Below are positions 4,624 through 24,610 of a DNA stretch of 32,332 nt, in pieces; the first letter of the stretch is position 1, and each line of letters begins with the position of its first letter. Where the stretch lies: assembly GCA_945877905.1 (NCBI GenBank), contig CAMDUT010000009.1, positions 1-32,332 of the forward strand, given 5' to 3'. The notes under the pieces were generated by a model. It ran no database searches, was not told the origin of the DNA, and saw only the letters and a list, made by a program, of their open reading frames with translations. This DNA is from Phycisphaera mikurensis NBRC 102666. Lineage in GTDB: Bacteria; Planctomycetota; Phycisphaerae; Phycisphaerales; SM1A02. The translations under genes were made by a program, and so were the position numbers.

Positions 4624-7600
4624 GCCGTGTCCTCCACCGACGCGCCGCGGAGCGACAGCAGGTCGCGCAGCTGCGCGGTGTTGAGCTCGGTGAGCCACTG
4701 CTCGCCGCTGCCGATGATCTGGCTCGCGAGCTCGGTCTTCTGCTCGATCATCTGGTCGATGCGCTCCTCGAGCGTGCCGACGGTGATCATCTTGTGCACG
4801 TTCACGGTGCGGAGCTGCCCGATGCGGAACGCGCGGTCGGTGGCCTGGTTCTCGACCGCCGGGTTCCACCATCGGTCGTAGTGGAACACGTGGTTGGCCG
4901 CGGTCAGGTTGAGGCCCACGCCGCCGGCCTTGAGGCTGAGGACGAAGATCGGCGCCGCGGGGTCCTCGCTCTGGAAGCGCTGCACCAGCTGCTCGCGCTT
5001 GGCCTGCGGCGTGCCGCCGTGCAGGAAGAGCGCCTCGCGGTCGAGGTCCTGGCGGATCATCTGCACCAGCAGGTGGCCCATCTGCCGGTACTGCGTGAAG
5101 ATCAGCGCGCGGTCGCCGGACGCGACCACCTCCTCGAGCATCTCCATCATGCGGATGCTCTTGCCGCTGCGCGCGCTCAGCCGCTCGGCGCGCACCACGC
5201 CCGCAGGCACGGTGATGCGTCGCTCGGCGGGCGGCTCGCCCGGGGCGCCCTCGGAGCCCTCGTCCTCCTCGGGCGCGGCCTGCGGCATGCCCTCGCGCAG
5301 GAAGTGCGCGGGGTGGTTGCAGATCTGCTTCAGCTTCACCAGCGCGCTCAGCACCAGCCCGCGGCGGCGGATGCCCTCGGCCTGGTCGACGCGCTTGAGC
5401 ATGTCGTTCACCACCTGCTCGTAGAGCGAGGCCTGCTCGGGCGTGAGCGGGATCTGCTGGCGCGTCTCGACCAGCGGCGGGAGGTCGGTGATGACCTTCG
5501 GGTCGGTCTTCAGGCGTCGCAGGATGAACGGCCGCACCAGCTGGCGCAGGCGCTCGGCCTGGCGCTTGTCGCGGTGCCGCTCGACGGGAAGCGCGAAGCG
5601 CTTGCGGAAGTCGTTCTGCGTGCCGAGGTAGCCGGGGCAGCAGAACTCCATGATCGACCAGAGCTCCGTCAGGCGGTTCTCCACCGGCGTGCCCGTGAGC
5701 GCGACGCGGAACTTCGTGCGCAGGGCGCGGATCGCGGCGGTCTGCTTCGTCGGCGGGTTCTTGATGTGCTGCGCCTCGTCGAGCACCACGCGGCGCCACT
5801 CGACCTGGTTCAGCGCGTCCTTGTCGCGCGTGACCAAGGCGTAGGTGGTGACCACCACGTCCGCGCGCTGCGCCAGGTGCAGGAAGCGGTCGCCCTGCGG
5901 CCGCTCGAGGCCGTGGTGCACGTGCACCACCAGCTCGGGCGCGAACCGGGTGAGCTCGCGGTGCCAGTTGCCGAGCACGCTCATCGGCGCCACGAGCAGC
6001 GTCGGGCCCACGCGCTCGCCCTCGGGCGCGGTCTGGCGCTCGTGCTGCAGCAGGCCGATGAGCTGGATCGTCTTGCCGAGGCCCATGTCGTCGGCCAGGC
6101 ACGCGCCCATTCCGTAGCGCTCGAGGAACGCGAGCCAGCTGACGCCGGCGCGCTGGTACGGCCGCAGCGATCCCTGGAACCGCTCGGGCTGCTCGACCAG
6201 CTGCATGGTCTCGGTGCTGTCCGCGGGACCGAACACCTCCGCGACCCAGCCCTTCGTGTCGAGGCCGACCACCGGCAGTGCGCCGTCGGCGGCGTCCGAG
6301 TGCGCCAGCCGCAGCGCCTCGACCAGCGTGGCCTGGCCGCCGGCGTTCGCCTTCAGGAACTTCACGCCGCGCTCGAGGTCCTCGGGCCGGATCTCCACCC
6401 ACCGGCCGTTGATGCGGACGAGCGGCATGCCCTTCTTCGCGAGCGCCTGGAACGCCTCGAGCGTGAGCGGCGTGTCGCCGAGCGCGATCTGCCAGCTGTA
6501 GTTGACGAGGCTGTGCAGCCCGATGCCGCCGCCGCGGCCGTCGCCCGCCGGCGCCTCCTCGCTGTCGATCATCAGGCGCGCGCCCACGCGGCTGGCGGTC
6601 TGCCCCCACCAGTCGGGCACCAGCACCTCGAAGCCCGCCTCCTGCAGCACGGGGCGCATGTCGCGGAGGAACTCGTACGCCTCCTTGGTCGAGAGGTCCA
6701 GCCCGGTGGGTGCGCCGTCGTCGAGCGCGTCCTCGATCTTCGGGCACAGTCGGCTCGCGCGGCCGAGCTCCTGGAGCAGCAGGTCGCACAGCTGCTGGGT
6801 CTCCTGCGTCGAGCGTCCCTTGCCGGCGCGGCCGCCCGCGGCGCGGGTCCAGAGCGTCTCGGCGTCGACGACGATCGGCGGGCTGTCCGACGAGACCAGC
6901 GAGAACGAGAGCCGCCACGGGTGGTCGTCCTCGTGGCCGTCCTGCGAGGGCAGGAGCTCCGGCGGCGGCTCGAGGAGCTGGAGCAGGAGCCGCATCTGGC
7001 GGCCCTCGCCGACGTCCTCGAGGTTCGCGATCCACTGGCGCGCCGTGCGCACGATGCTCGACTCGACCGCCGCGGGCTGGTGCACCGCGTGCTCGCGCCC
7101 CAGGAGCCCCGCGAGCCATGCGACGTGCGGGTCCTTCTCCGGATCGCGCCCGTCGATCGCCTCGGCGTAGCTCTCGGCCTCGAGGATGTCGCGCACGGTG
7201 GCGTCGACGAACGCACCCATCGACTGCTCGACCACGGCGCCGGCCGCGCCCGCGCCTTCGGCCGCGCGGACGATCGCCGGGGTGCCGCGCACGATCGACG
7301 TGAGGCGCGCGTGGTTCGGCGCGTCGTGGAGCCACGGCCGCCATGCGGCGAACATGGCGCCGGAGCGCTCCTGCACCACGGTGGGGATCACGCGCTGGTC
7401 GGCGATCAGGTGCTCGGCGAAGCGGCCGACGGCCTGCCACCATCGTGCATCGTGGCCCCACGCCATGCCTTTGCCGCACGCCTCGGGATCGAGGGTGCGC
7501 GTGAGGGCGAACGCGGTGCGCGCGTCGAGCACGATCGCGGGCACGTCGACGGGGACCAGCGCCTCCTCGGGCTCGGCGTCGAAGCCCGCGGCCTCGTCCT

Positions 7601-18892: not shown

Positions 18893-18898
18893 TATGAT
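18893..18898 (+). promoter_or_regulatory. Candidate -10 (TATGAT) of the clpP cluster
   Basis: TATGAT is a 5/6 match to the -10 consensus, 46 bases before the first clpP ATG, leaving a leader of about 40 nt that contains the GAGGA ribosome site (18936-18940). The -35 region is weak. This is one of the few units here with a conventional leader. Confidence 0.45.
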
Positions 18899-18944
18899 CC
18901 GTGCCCCCCGCGCGCACCGCGCGGCACACGCACCCGAGGAACGC

Positions 18945-19640
18945 ATGCACCCGAACCTCCCGATCGGCCAGTACCACAACGGCGTCCACGGCGCCATGAC
19001 CGCCACGACCGGCTCGCTCGCCGCCGCCGGCATCGGCAACGGCGTCCTGCCGCGCGACGTGATGGCCAGCGTGGCCTACCAGCGCACGCGCGAGATGACG
19101 ATCGACGAGCTGCTCCTCGAGAACCGCGTCGTGTTCCTGATCGGCGAGATCAACCACGCCTCGGCCGCGCGCGTGATGATGCAGATGCTCTACCTCGAGA
19201 ACCAGAAGCGCGGGCAGGACATCAACTTCTACATCAACAGCCCGGGCGGCGCGGTCGACGACACGCTGGCCATCTACGACACCATGCAGTTCATCTCGAG
19301 CGAGGTGGCCACCTACTGCATCGGCCGCGCGTACTCGGGCGGCGCCGTGCTGCTGGCCGTCGGCCAGAAGGGCAAGCGCGTCATCCTGCCGCACGCCAAG
19401 GTGATGATCCACCAGCCGCACGGCGGCGTGTACGGCCAGACGTCGGACATCCAGATCCAGGCCGAGATGATCCTCAAGATGAAGCGGCAGCTCAACGAGA
19501 TCCTCGCCAAGCACACGGGCCAGTCGGTGGAGCGCGTCGCGAAGGACGCCGAGCGCGACAAGTACTTCAGCGCCGACGAGGCCAAGGCCTACGGCCTGGT
19601 CGACCTGGTGGCGGAGTTCCCGGAGAAGGGCAAGCGTTGA
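18945..19640 (+). CDS. clpP: ATP-dependent Clp protease proteolytic subunit, copy 1 (divergent)
   Basis: A 231-residue ClpP-family peptidase with the full triad S131 (GRAYSGGAV), H156 (VMIHQPHGG) and D205 (ERDKYFSADEAKAYGLVD). The spacings of 25 and 49 residues equal those of E. coli ClpP. The active-site loop reads A-Y-S-G-G and not the canonical A-A-S-M-G, and the N-terminus has about 45 extra residues before the conserved core. ClpP forms double heptameric rings that degrade proteins fed by ClpX/ClpA. GAGGA precedes the ATG at 18945. It is the first of three clpP genes in a row and differs most from the other two, so it may form a mixed ring or play a specialised role. Confidence 0.92.
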   Translation: MHPNLPIGQYHNGVHGAMTATTGSLAAAGIGNGVLPRDVMASVAYQRTREMTIDELLLENRVVFLIGEINHASAARVMMQMLYLENQKRGQDINFYINSPGGAVDDTLAIYDTMQFISSEVATYCIGRAYSGGAVLLAVGQKGKRVILPHAKVMIHQPHGGVYGQTSDIQIQAEMILKMKRQLNEILAKHTGQSVERVAKDAERDKYFSADEAKAYGLVDLVAEFPEKGKR

Positions 19641-20332
19641 TCGATTCGCGGTCCGCGCACCCGCTCGGCGGCGCCGGGCGGCACGACGACGATGACGACG
19701 ACCACGAGTGGGTCGCCGTCCCGCTGGTCGTGGACAAGCGCGGCAAGAGCGAGGAGCTGGTCGACCTCTACAGCCGGATGCTGCGCGACCGCGTGGTGTT
19801 CGTCGGCGGGCCGGTGGCCCGCGCGATGGCCCAGTCGGTGACCGCGCAGCTGCTGTTCCTGGCGAACGAGGACCCGAAGGCCGAGGTCAGCATGTACGTG
19901 AACAGCCCCGGCGGCTCGATCACGGACGGGCTGGCGATCATCGACACCATGCGCTCGCTGCCGTGCCCGGTGGCGACGTACATCGTCGGGCAGGCCGCGA
20001 GCATGGCGAGCGTCATCGCGTGCTGCGGCGCCAAGGGCCGGCGCTTCGCGCTGCGCCACGCCGAGAACCTCATGCACCAGGGCCGCATCGGCGGCTTCGA
20101 GGGGCAGGCCACCGACCTCGAGATCTTCGCGCGGCAGATGCAGCGCGTCGAGGACGTGTGCAACCGCCTGTACGCCGAGGCCACCGGCCACCCGGAGTCC
20201 AGGATCGCCGAGGACTGCGACCGCGACCTGTGGCTCGACGCGAACGAGATGCTCGCGTACGGGCTCATCGACCGAATCATCGAACGCATGCCCGAGGCGC
20301 CGCACATCGTGCGGACCGGGGCCGAGGACTGA
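19637..20332 (+). CDS. clpP: ATP-dependent Clp protease proteolytic subunit, copy 2
   Basis: A 231-residue ClpP with triad S122 ([13 protein letters not shown]), H147 ([10 protein letters not shown]) and D197 ([19 protein letters not shown]). The proposed start is TTG at 19637, overlapping the previous stop as TTGA and preceded by GGAGAAGGG (19622-19630). No ATG occurs in frame before the conserved core, so an unusual start is likely; a GTG near 19729 is an alternative. The N-terminal extension carries six consecutive aspartates ([12 protein letters not shown]). The residue after the active-site His-Gln is Gly and not the usual Pro, so handle-helix contacts may differ from copy 3. Translational coupling to copy 1 suggests fixed stoichiometry. 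Confidence 0.9.
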
Positions 20333-20342
20333 GGAACGAACC

Positions 20343-20939
20343 ATGACCCTGATCCCGATCGTCATCGAGAAGACCGGCCGCGGCGAGCGCGCCTACGACA
20401 TCTACAGCCGGCTGCTGAACGACCGCATCGTCTTCATGGGCGGCGGCGTCAGCGACGCGATGGCGAACCTGGTCGTCGCGCAGCTCCTGTTCCTGGCGAA
20501 CGAGGACCCCAAGGCCGAGATCAGCATGTACGTCAACAGCCCGGGCGGCAGCGTGAGCGCCGGACTCGGCATCGTCGACACCATGCGCTTCATCCCGTGC
20601 CCGGTGGCCACGTACATCATCGGCCAGGCCGCCAGCATGGGCAGCGTGATCGCCTGCAGCGGCACCAAGGGCCGGCGCTTCGCGCTGCCGCACGCCGAGA
20701 ACCTGATGCACCAGCCGCTCATCGGCGGAGTCATCGAGGGCCAGGCCACCGACCTCGAGATCCACGCCAAGCACATCCTGCGCCTGCGCGACAAGCTGTA
20801 CACGCTCTACAGCGAGAACACCGGGCAGACCAAGGACCGCATCCACGACGACTGCGACCGCGACAAGTGGCTCAACGCGCAGGAGATGCTGGAGTACGGC
20901 CTGATCGACGGCATCCTCGAGCGCCTGCCGGGGAAGTAG
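20343..20939 (+). CDS. clpP: ATP-dependent Clp protease proteolytic subunit, copy 3 (canonical)
   Basis: A 198-residue protein closest to textbook ClpP in length and sequence: [22 protein letters not shown] at the N-terminus, triad S98 (GQAASMGSV), H123 ([10 protein letters not shown]) and D174 ([19 protein letters not shown]). The N-terminal axial-loop sequence that gates the chamber and docks ClpX is conserved. GAGGAA lies 5-6 bases before the ATG at 20343, and the gene follows copy 2 after 10 bases. No clpX or tig gene is adjacent, unlike many bacterial clpP loci. Copies 2 and 3 look like products of duplication, sharing [10 protein letters not shown] and the CDRD motif. Confidence 0.95.
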
Positions 20940-21080: not shown

Positions 21081-22142
21081 ATGCTGCATTCCGCGTTTGC
21101 TTCCGGTTTCCGTCGTTCGGTCGTCGCGCTTGTCGCGGTCTGCTCCGCCGCATCGCTCGCGCCGGCGGCCCGCGCGCAGGGCTGCACGGGCGACCTGAAC
21201 GAAGATGGCGTCATCGACGGGGCAGACCTCGGGGTGCAGCTCTCCGCATGGGGCCCATGCACGGGGTGTGCCGCGGACATCAATGGTTCGGGCGTGGTGG
21301 ACGGCGCGGACCTCGGGCTGTTGCTCGGGGCGTGGGGCATATGCCCGGGCGTCCCCGATTGGGCGACCGTGGTGCAGTACGCGCCCGACCCCGCCGTGGT
21401 GACCGACCCGTCGCTGCGCGCGGCGATCATCGCCACCGGCCGCCCGTGGCGCGTGCGCGACACGGCGACGCAGATCGAGATGCTCTTGGTGCCGCCGGGG
21501 ACGTTCCAGATGGGCTGCATCATGGGGTCGAACCAGTACGGGTGCTACTCATCGGAGCAGCCCGTCCACCAGGTGACGCTGACGAACGCGTTCTACCTGG
21601 GCCGCTACGAGGTGACGCAGGCGCAGTGGCAGGCGAGGATGGGCTCGAACCCGTCGTGGTTCAACTTCGCCGACACGCCGAACCGCCCGGTCGAGACTGT
21701 CTCGTGGACCACGATCCAAGGCTTCCTCTCTGCGACGGGGCTCCGGCTGCCGACGGAGGCGGAGTGGGAGTGTGCATGCCGCGCCGGCACGCAGACGCCC
21801 TTCTACGACAACTCGACCGACGACAACACGCTGGGTGCGCTGGCGTGGTACTGGCAGAACGCCGGCAGCAAGACGCGCCCCGTCGGCGGCAAGGCCGCGA
21901 ACGCCTTCGGCTTCCACGACATGCTCGGCAACGTGTGGGAGTGGGTGAACGACTGGTACGCCAGTTACTCGGGGAACGCCCAAACGAATCCAGCGGGTCC
22001 GGTAAATGCGTCGGCCCGCGTGCTCCGCGGCGGCGGCTGGAACGTCAACGCCGCGGGCTACGTGCGCTCGTCCTCCCGCACCTACGGCGCGCCCGGCTAC
22101 GCGGTCAACACCATCGGGTTCCGCGTCGCGAGGACCCCCTGA
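21081..22142 (+). CDS. Secreted dockerin-like/FGE-sulfatase (SUMF1) domain protein, probable DGR-type variable protein
   Basis: 353 residues. A signal peptide (about 1-33, cleavage after ARA) is followed by two dockerin-like calcium-binding repeats: GDLNEDGVIDGADLGVQLSA and ADINGSGVVDGADLGLLLGA. Residues about 130-353 form an FGE-sulfatase domain: MLLVPPGTFQMG, VTLTNAFYLGRYEVTQAQW, VETVSWTTIQGFL, LRLPTEAEWECACRAG, FGFHDMLGNVWEWVNDW and RVLRGGGWN to GFRVARTP. The fold is a C-type-lectin-like scaffold. Many such proteins bind ligands and are not enzymes, and several are targets of diversity-generating retroelements. The last 35 residues match the expected variable surface. GAGGA (21069-21073) precedes the ATG at 21081. 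The role is probably cell-surface binding; the ligand is unknown. Confidence 0.88.
   Translation: MLHSAFASGFRRSVVALVAVCSAASLAPAARAQGCTGDLNEDGVIDGADLGVQLSAWGPCTGCAADINGSGVVDGADLGLLLGAWGICPGVPDWATVVQYAPDPAVVTDPSLRAAIIATGRPWRVRDTATQIEMLLVPPGTFQMGCIMGSNQYGCYSSEQPVHQVTLTNAFYLGRYEVTQAQWQARMGSNPSWFNFADTPNRPVETVSWTTIQGFLSATGLRLPTEAEWECACRAGTQTPFYDNSTDDNTLGALAWYWQNAGSKTRPVGGKAANAFGFHDMLGNVWEWVNDWYASYSGNAQTNPAGPVNASARVLRGGGWNVNAAGYVRSSSRTYGAPGYAVNTIGFRVARTP
22038..22139 (+). repeat. Candidate DGR variable region (VR) at the 3' end of the FGE-domain gene
   Basis: The segment from the Trp codon of GGGWN to the end encodes N-V-N-A-A-G-Y-V-R-S-S-S-R-T-Y-G-A-P-G-Y-A-V-N-T before the conserved IGFRVARTP. 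Related DGR templates encode many Asn (AAC) codons at these positions. Here nearly all of those positions are occupied by V, A, G, Y, S or T through codons GTC, GCC, GGC, TAC, TCC and ACC. Each differs from AAC only at the A positions, as adenine-directed mutagenesis predicts. Codons ending in C are common in this genome anyway, so this is suggestive and not proof. No template repeat copy is in the window. Confidence 0.5.
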
Positions 22143-22177
22143 TTTCCTTTTCCCTTCTTCTCTCTTCCCTCTTCTTT
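22143..22177 (+). repeat. 35-nt uninterrupted polypyrimidine tract
   Basis: Directly after the FGE-domain stop codon come 35 consecutive T/C bases, including a near mirror-symmetric part (around 22151-22170). In DNA of about 70% G+C this composition is striking. It sits where a DGR locus would have the sequence between its variable region and the avd gene. It could form a triplex or act as a T-rich terminator. Confidence 0.7.
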
Positions 22178-22199
22178 GCCACCACGGGGCCTCGATTCG

Positions 22200-22451
22200 A
22201 TGCCACTTCCCAAGGTGCCGAACCCGGCGCAGGTGGTGCTTGAGCTTCCCCCGGGGTACGAGGGCAGTGGCGACCCCCGCCCGCGGTCGGCGGAGCCGAC
22301 CGCGGTGATCTTGGCCAGCGACATCCTGCGCTGGCTGATCCCCAAGGTGGGGAAGTTCCCGGGTCCAGGATCGCGGCCGGGGTTGGGGGTGACGGGTGCG
22401 TTCCCCCGGTCGCGGGCCGCTTCGGCGCCCAACGCCCGAGTCCGTTCGTGA
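22200..22451 (+). pseudogene. Degenerate four-helix-bundle (Avd-like) fragment
   Basis: An 83-codon frame begins MPLPKVPNPAQVVLELPPGY and contains SDILRWLIPKVGKFPG (about 43-58). That segment strongly resembles the first helix and loop of the four-helix-bundle proteins (Avd/23S-IVP family) that accompany DGR reverse transcriptases, whose usual pattern is LLxWLLPKxxKFPRxxRxxLG. After KFP the sequence turns into Pro/Gly/Arg/Ala-rich text with no helical bundle and stops at 22451. Full-length members are about 110-130 residues, so helices 2-4 are missing. The call is a truncated remnant lying directly after the candidate VR. A functional short protein cannot be excluded, because the start and first helix look intact. 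Confidence 0.5.
22281..22305 (+). other. Perfect GC hairpin/cruciform downstream of the candidate VR
   Basis: CCGCGGTCGGC (22281-22291) pairs exactly with GCCGACCGCGG (22295-22305) around a GGA loop: an 11-bp stem. It is about 140 bases past the candidate VR and inside the Avd-like fragment. In phage BPP-1 a hairpin/cruciform just downstream of the VR aids retrohoming; an equivalent role here is inference. Confidence 0.55.
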
Positions 22452-22527
22452 CGCCGCCGCGCCCCGGGGACCCGGGCCGCGGTGGCCGTGCAACGCTCCG
22501 GCGCGCCGCGACGGCCGCATCCGGTGA

Positions 22528-22575: not shown

Positions 22576-23730
22576 ATGATCGATCGTCCCACCGACCGCT
22601 CGCTGGTGGCGACCGCCCTGCGGCGGAGCCGCGTCGTGGCGCTCCTCGGCCCGAGGCAGAGCGGCAAGACGACGCTCGCGCGGGAGTTCGTGCCCGAGCG
22701 GTCGCCCAACTACTTCGACCTCGAGGACCCCGCGTCCCTCGCGCGGCTCGAGCAGCCGGACACGGCGCTTCGGCCGCTGCGGGGGATCGTCGTGATCGAC
22801 GAGATCCAGCGCCGCCCCGAGTTGTTCCCGCTGCTGCGGGTGCTCGCCGACAGGCGACCGCTTCCCGCGCGCTTCCTGATCCTCGGTAGCACGGGGCCGG
22901 ATCTCCTGCGCCAGTCCTCCGAGTCACTCGCCGGCCGCATCGAGACCGTGAAGCTCGAGGGGCTCCGGCTCCGCGACCTCGGCCCCGCGCACGTGGCGCG
23001 CCACTGGCTCCGCGGCGGGTTCCCGCGGGCCTACGCCGCACGGACCGCGGCGGAGTCCATGTCCTGGCGCCGCGAGTTCATCCAGACATTCCTCGAGCGC
23101 GACATCCCGCAGTTCGGGATCCGCATCCCCGCGCTCACGCTGCGCAGGTTCTGGAACATGATCGCCCACCTGCACGGTCAGGTGTGGAACGGCGCCGAGC
23201 TGGCGCGGTCGATGGCCGTGGCGGAGACCACCGTCCGGCGCTACCTCGACCTGATGAGCGACGTCTTCATGCTCCGTCAGCTGCCGCCGTGGCACGAGAA
23301 CATCGCGAAGCGACAGGTGAAGTCACCGAAGATCTACGTGCGGGACAGCGGGCTGCTCCATGCCCTGATCGGGACGGCGACCGATCGCGAGCTCTCGATG
23401 CACCCGAAGCTGGGCGCATCGTGGGAGGGATATGCCGTCGAGGAGGTTCTGAAGGCGATCCGCCCCGACGACGCATACTTCTGGGCCACCCACCAGGGCG
23501 CCGAGCTTGACCTGCTGCTCTTCGTGCGCGGCCGGCGGATCGGCGTGGAGTGCAAGCGGATGGATGCGCCGACGGTCACCCACTCGATGCGCATCGCGAT
23601 GCACGACCTCCGGCTCGACCGCCTGATCGTCGTGCATCCCGGCGATCGGCGCTATCCGCTCGGCACGGGGATCGATGCGGTGCCGCTTTCGGAGATCGCG
23701 CTGTGGGACGGCGCGGTCCGGCCTCGCTGA
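22576..23730 (+). CDS. AAA_14/DUF4143 family ATPase
   Basis: 384 residues. The N-terminal P-loop ATPase (AAA_14) has Walker A GPRQSGKTT (25-33) and Walker B VVIDEIQRRPE (D75, E76), plus the sensor-like ILGSTGPDLL. The middle, with FLERDIPQFGI and WNGAELARSMAVAETTVRRYL, is a winged-helix-like segment. The C-terminal DUF4143 part has the usual KSPKIYVRDSGLLHALIG and a restriction-endonuclease-like core, GAELDLLLFVRG-IGVECKR (E325, K327). The family is widespread, often mobile or patchily distributed, and its biological function is unproven. The gene is monocistronic and placed next to the DGR-like remnant. Its promoter is AT-richer than its neighbours', which hints at separate acquisition. Confidence 0.9.
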   Translation: MIDRPTDRSLVATALRRSRVVALLGPRQSGKTTLAREFVPERSPNYFDLEDPASLARLEQPDTALRPLRGIVVIDEIQRRPELFPLLRVLADRRPLPARFLILGSTGPDLLRQSSESLAGRIETVKLEGLRLRDLGPAHVARHWLRGGFPRAYAARTAAESMSWRREFIQTFLERDIPQFGIRIPALTLRRFWNMIAHLHGQVWNGAELARSMAVAETTVRRYLDLMSDVFMLRQLPPWHENIAKRQVKSPKIYVRDSGLLHALIGTATDRELSMHPKLGASWEGYAVEEVLKAIRPDDAYFWATHQGAELDLLLFVRGRRIGVECKRMDAPTVTHSMRIAMHDLRLDRLIVVHPGDRRYPLGTGIDAVPLSEIALWDGAVRPR

Positions 23731-23842: not shown

Positions 23843-24355
23843 TCAGCGGCGGCGGCGTGGGCGCAGCGCGAGGAGCAGCGCGATCGCGCCGGGCGCAGGC
23901 ACTGCCTGCGGCACCGCGCCCGAGCCAAACACCCACGCATCCTTGCTGCGGTCGGTGAGCGTTCGGTCGCTGGCGCCGAACATCGCCATCTCCCACTGCC
24001 CGTTCACCTCGGTCCAGTAGTGCCAGTAGTTCTCGATGGGCCAGAGGTCGCCGTTGCCGTGCTCGAAGTCACCGCCGAGTCCGATGCCGGTGACGAACGA
24101 GCCGAACGGATACGCGTCGTACTGCAGCTGCGAGCCCGGGATCGCGGCGATCGCGAGCTGCATGGCCTCGAATCCGTCCATCGGCTCGGTCCACGACAGG
24201 TTGATCACGTACCCGTTGCCGTTCGAGAAATCGACCTGGATGGTCGAGGTGCTCGTGCCCGAACCGACGTCGTAGGTGGCGACGATCCCGGCGATGGCGT
24301 GCGAAGAGGTGAGAACGAGTGCCGCGGCGACCGCGGCCGGCTGCATCCGGTGCAT
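23843..24355 (-). CDS. Small secreted protein with PEP-CTERM-like C-terminus
   Basis: 170 residues. A signal peptide (MHRMQPAAVAAALVLTSSHA) precedes a mature domain rich in aromatic residues, Gly and Ser (GIVATYDVGSGTSTSTIQVD, GNGYVINLSWTEPMDGFEAM), resembling small secreted planctomycete proteins. The C-terminus VPAPGAIALLLALRPRRRR is a short version of the PEP-CTERM/VPAPGA sorting signal: motif, hydrophobic stretch, then Arg cluster. The hydrophobic part is unusually short (about 9 residues). Such proteins are exported, then cleaved by an exosortase. The start at 24355 has AGGAAGGAA a few bases upstream on the minus strand; an earlier in-frame ATG at 24424 would put sequence unlike a signal peptide in front. 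The function of the mature domain is unknown. Confidence 0.75.
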   Translation of the reverse strand: MHRMQPAAVAAALVLTSSHAIAGIVATYDVGSGTSTSTIQVDFSNGNGYVINLSWTEPMDGFEAMQLAIAAIPGSQLQYDAYPFGSFVTGIGLGGDFEHGNGDLWPIENYWHYWTEVNGQWEMAMFGASDRTLTDRSKDAWVFGSGAVPQAVPAPGAIALLLALRPRRRR

Positions 24356-24610
24356 GGTGTTCCTTCCTGAGTTGCGCAGGAGAACGGGTTGTCTCGGATG
24401 CCGGTCGACCCGACTCGCATGCACCCACGCGGGTGCCGCCTACGGTGACGCCTTCGTTGCGGACTTTGACCGCATTCCTCCGGGCATCCGAGCGGCCGCT
24501 TCGTGCGCGGCCGCGGGCACGATAGCGCATGCACGCCCGAAAGCAAGCAACGCGAACGGAAGTCGCGCGCGATTCCCCGTCACTACCATGCGTCGGTCCC
24601 GGAGGACCCC

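Follow-up and report, generated by a model that had tools for sequence, protein, structure and literature searches.

Is the gene with a hypervariable 3' end in this planctomycete contig the target of a diversity-generating retroelement (DGR) that has lost its machinery, or is it still rewritten in trans by a reverse transcriptase (RT) encoded elsewhere in the genome? Both possibilities had been raised in an earlier note on this DNA. The window, i.e. the whole stretch of 32,332 nucleotides that was analysed, comes from contig C9 of a Planctomycetota MAG of 2.47 Mb in 201 contigs, which is 97.6% complete; of its named genus mates, a Planctomycetota MAG from Lake Pavin is the nearest. The genus comparison comprised 14 genomes, several of them less than 70% complete. 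An intact DGR of the same genus, L103, is located on contig C183 of a Lake Pavin MAG (G008; JAPLMU010000107.1). We consider it quite likely that the window locus is a relic DGR cassette, from which a single internal deletion removed the machinery and in which the target probably is fixed at its last variant. The features are listed in Table 1.

Table 1. Coordinates of DGR-related features in the window and of conserved post-template tails in related loci
Feature	Position	Strand	Basis
DGR target gene	21081..22142	+	ORF; Pfam matches
Variable region (VR)	22020..22142	+	three own-genome copies; codon-position test; template-adenine test
Polypyrimidine tract	22143..22180	+	directly 3' of VR stop codon
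avd (accessory variability determinant), 5' part	22200..22360	+	codons 1-53/54, in frame; homology
Deletion joint	22360..22361	.	avd 5' part fused to tail; abutting alignments to G008:C183
DGR post-template tail remnant	22361..22492	+	GTCCAGG...GCCGGGGTT to terminal hairpin; covariance-model match
Terminal hairpin of tail	22453..22487	+	RNA fold
Conserved post-template tail	L103:1827-1930		
Conserved post-template tail	L104:3671-3773		
Conserved post-template tail	L105:5284-5406		
Conserved post-template tail	L106:1915-2037		
Conserved post-template tail	L107:2029-2150		
Conserved post-template tail	L108:1773-1872		
Conserved post-template tail	L059:1434-1555		

The target had been described as a secreted FGE-sulfatase/C-type-lectin-like protein and Pfam matches bear this out. 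The intact reading frame specifies a signal peptide, two dockerin-type repeats (dockerin match E 0.0073) and an FGE-sulfatase domain of C-type-lectin fold (PF03781, E 9.7e-47). The last ~125 bp were present in two more copies in the own genome, on contigs C98 (82%) and C47 (81%), both of which belong to paralogs of the window target. Differences between the copies were counted by codon position (1st/2nd/3rd) in pairwise tests that are not independent of each other. Upstream of the VR the window gene differed from C98 by 35/29/63 over 306 codons and from C47 by 18/13/26 over 92 codons. In the core of adenine-driven variation (22038-22112) the counts were 11/7/0 over 24 codons for C98 and 10-11/9-10/0 over 24-25 codons for C47; the 9 codons that follow the core were 0/0/0 against C98. 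Over the 33 VR codons of the core and the constant 3' end ATCGGGTTCCGCGTCGCGAGG there was not one third-position difference versus 17-30% upstream. In the control, the non-VR paralog C47b, third positions of this segment had changed at a normal rate (12 of 25 codons). Ordinary selection does not fit, because it would not erase third-position change while raising that at first and second positions. The pattern points to copies of a shared template, with the errors falling on the A's of AAC codons.

The same conclusion was reached with the template repeat of G008, which is 77% identical to the window VR and served as a stand-in for the template of the own genome. Among the three own VRs 23 of 31 template-A columns were variable, compared to 5 of 82 non-A columns (Fisher p = 8e-13). 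Four of these five are located at the 5' edge of the VR and the fifth probably is an A in the template of the own genome. Thus the restriction of substitutions to A-positions, surmised in the earlier note, was confirmed, and the 3'-terminal VR of this C-type-lectin/FGE gene, with its differences confined to template adenines, has the character of a DGR target. It is extremely improbable that the three genes are ordinary FGE paralogs with C-terminal ends under diversifying selection, followed in the window by an unrelated small protein. The genome does hold other FGE-domain paralogs, and C47b is without a VR signature; against this stand the many first- and second-position changes on template adenines at zero third-position change and the homology of the downstream sequences to an intact DGR (see below), by which this reading was already refuted. 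The window VR has one codon more than either the G008 template or the VRs on C98 and C47 (22038-22062), and in-frame length changes inside the VR were also seen in G004:C45 and G013:C38.

These data support a past in which all three targets were rewritten from a single common template. We take the absence of third-position differences to mean that one template rewrote all three after the cassettes had diverged; at that time at least two of the three targets would have been served in trans. Rewriting thus last took place late in relation to cassette divergence, and ongoing activity would fit too.

The pyrimidine tract reported behind the target was found as described; it is 97% pyrimidine, and nothing like it occurs elsewhere in the window. 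Related cassettes that were examined have the tract after the VR but not after the template. It also follows the VR in L104, L105, L107 and L108 and spans some 35-50 bases across the cassettes examined. In the DGR of Bordetella phage BPP-1 a hairpin marks the target site, and by analogy the tract may play this role here. No BPP-1-style hairpin was seen directly after the VR in the window, where the tract stands in its place. Contigs often end in or beside the VR and the tract, as do G008:C1 (3165 bp), G008:C183 (3466 bp), G009:C295 and the end of C47. Assemblies thus break there, and complete DGRs will be undercounted in surveys of fragmented genomes.

What has been lost behind the tract can be read from the intact unit. 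On G008:C183 the tract is followed by avd, an RT of 374 residues with a YCDD motif, the template (CTGGAACAACAACACGAACAACGTGCGC...) and a tail of ~190 bases. Further planctomycete units (L104-L108) carry avd, RT and template in the same order, with a recognisable tail in most. These units and L103 resemble the window cassette in the FGE-type target, the tract after the VR, the adenine-rich template and the conserved tail; unlike the window they have kept avd, RT (YCDD) and template. L105 has a second avd-like stretch downstream of its template (5586-5732), possibly a further decayed copy. The alignments of the window to G008:C183 abut: 22200-22360 corresponds to positions 71-231 in avd (77% identity), and from 22361 the window continues with positions 1826-1849; in addition, 22463-22490 corresponds to 1901-1928. 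Missing from the window are positions 232-1825, about 1594 bp that hold the 3' part of avd, the RT and the template repeat. The loss of avd, template and RT proposed in the earlier note therefore holds for RT and template, but for avd only in part, since its first 53-54 codons are still there.

The avd stump was compared to the intact avd on contig C47, which matched NF033474 (E 4.9e-16) and is 80% identical in amino acids to the avd of L103. Over 53 codons the stump differed by 3/1/12 at the three codon positions, resulting in 3 amino-acid differences. With so few amino-acid changes the stump appears to have been under purifying selection for long, and the deletion would be comparatively recent. 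Only by way of the C47 copy did the avd homology of the downstream 83-residue frame come to light. In the profile search suggested for this region (22200-22451) the frame alone had no match in Pfam and NCBIfam, and tblastn found none in phages. The truncated frame with an Avd motif was correctly recognised as far as 22200-22360 is concerned, but we rejected the 83-residue frame as one protein, because beyond about residue 54 it is read-through into former post-template sequence. A full four-helix-bundle avd is encoded on C47 and not at the locus.

Because the sequence matches of the tail to G008 are short, the tail was tested independently by a covariance model. A search by sequence only returned mostly short chance matches save for G008 and G005, which the covariance model resolved. 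The alignment of seven intact DGRs (L103-L108 and G018) showed a conserved GTCCAGG...GCCAGGGTT motif and a terminal helix with both-sided changes in 7 of 16 pairs; its covariation score was reached by none of 500 shuffles, nor by slid versions. The model, which was built without the window, matched at 22362-22492 with 41.9 bits and an E-value of 3.9e-7 by a rough calibration. This was the best match over 466 kb and the only one in the own genome. Thus the strong hairpin pointed out in the earlier note is real and constitutes the end of the tail that adjoins the template in intact relatives. Rfam had no match for the tail in G008 or in the window. Since the template follows the RT in these DGRs, the tail is placed after the template and probably is the spacer part of the DGR RNA. 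In BPP-1 a structured spacer RNA beside the template recruits RT and Avd (PMC12875486), and we infer by analogy that the window-type tail is its counterpart. A conserved, covarying tail without an Rfam match is usable for finding decayed DGR units.

Could the RT and template be located elsewhere in the genome? An RVT_1 profile that does detect the DGR RTs of G008, G018, G078 and G041 found no RT in the own genome. Queries with the VR or the template returned the three VR copies only, and no sequence that departs from the VR solely at adenines, as a template would. Other machinery was found on C47 only, where the intact avd is followed by an RT cut after ~122 codons and then by another FGE gene. 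Both genome-wide checks that the earlier note had called for thus came out empty, and its alternative of diversification in trans is not supported in this 201-contig assembly. With RT and template missing from the assembly and avd incomplete at the locus, the locus does not qualify as a functional DGR, but it does as a DGR target relic. Given an assembly without RT and template, a target that is now fixed is the simplest interpretation.

Loss is widespread in the genus. A full RT was present in only one of the 14 genomes (G008), truncated in one and absent from 12, while summed completeness predicts about 11.4 genomes with a full RT if it were universal. VR/template-like ends were found in 9 of the 14. 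These figures bear on the reading that the window gene is a satellite target, which after the loss of its own RT and template continues to be diversified in trans by a complete DGR elsewhere in the genome that assembly or binning has missed. The agreement of the three VRs at every third position, i.e. one template serving all of them after divergence, would fit, as would the retention of both the constant VR end and the tract, and for incomplete DGR loci in another organism action in trans has been reported (PMC10907252). A counterpoint to a frozen target is that DGR units are easily lost in assembly, as the short RT contig of G008 with its break exactly at the tract illustrates. On the other hand, the genome is 97.6% complete without RT, template or second tail, an RT, being a unique sequence, should normally be assembled, the RT at the second own locus on C47 is truncated as well, and genomes without a full RT are too many in the genus to be explained by assembly gaps. 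We judge continued service in trans to be unlikely.

In the relic that we favour, the original order was target with VR, pyrimidine tract, avd, RT, template and tail. Copies of the template with errors at adenines once went into the 3' end of this FGE target, and at least two paralogous targets in the same genome were served as well. A single internal deletion, which reached from avd codon 54 to a point ~86 bases beyond the template, then took out the machinery. The target gene was kept intact and probably now is frozen at its last variant; diversification would have stopped, with the retained variant kept by selection.

Avd stumps of various length were also found on G010:C31, G010:C12, G005:C34 and G009:C295. 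On G010:C31 avd 1-320 is joined to tail position 1874. G010:C12 is orthologous to the window site, flanked as it is by the clpP genes and the downstream gene that also flank the window locus, and G005:C34 adjoins the same downstream gene. Thus three species show decay of the orthologous site, with breakpoints that differ. We considered retrotransposition as the source of the varied 3' truncations and rejected it: survival of the tail in the window and in G010:C31 means that the deletions were internal. The same data make it very improbable that target, VR and the start of avd were merely copied to this place as a partial duplicate and that no deletion occurred on site. Several targets do carry VR and tract without avd (C98, G004, G013). 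Yet in the window the avd fragment leads directly into the tail in the correct order, as on G010:C31 too; this requires internal deletion of a complete unit, and DGR debris is present at the same site in two genus mates. The recurrent gutting with strict retention of the VR target might even be adaptive, either by fixing a variant found by the DGR through loss of RT and template or by leaving RT-free satellites to one rare complete unit; we regard this as a tentative and rather doubtful idea.

DGR relics have been described before. Treponema denticola isolates without RT and template retain VR targets with differences mostly at template adenines (PMC4891356), i.e. the same adenine signature on targets left over after loss of the core DGR. 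Different from T. denticola, the window still shows the joint, the avd stump and the post-template tail, and there are separate losses in several species. A cyanobacterial paralog has remnant homology with no RT nearby (PMC7517822). In Thiohalocapsa PB-PSB1 there are incomplete DGR loci in which VRs stand next to an RT or template that is broken or missing; some of these loci undergo diversification in trans or in subpopulations that have intact copies (PMC10907252). Its VRs match a template elsewhere, whereas no intact copy was seen in the genome of the window. The BPP-1 DGR shares VR, avd, template and RT, adenine mutagenesis and a structured spacer RNA with the planctomycete units, but its template precedes the RT instead of following it, and the VR of the window is followed by a tract and not by a hairpin. 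The window cassette therefore is an unusually readable case and not a new kind. What sets it apart is that its joint can be read against an intact neighbour and that losses have occurred separately several times within one genus, two of them at the orthologous site. A simple ordering of events follows from the third-position test: rewriting outlasted gene divergence and the machinery was lost afterwards.

Finally, the surroundings of the locus were compared. On its upstream side the target adjoins three clpP-like genes in tandem (18894-20939), which are kept at the orthologous site in G010 and G013. An AAA_14/DUF4143 ATPase gene (22576-23730) lies between the DGR relic and the neighbour gene on the minus strand (23843-24424). 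There is none at that place in G013:C14 and G010:C12, and the ATPase gene probably is a later insertion.
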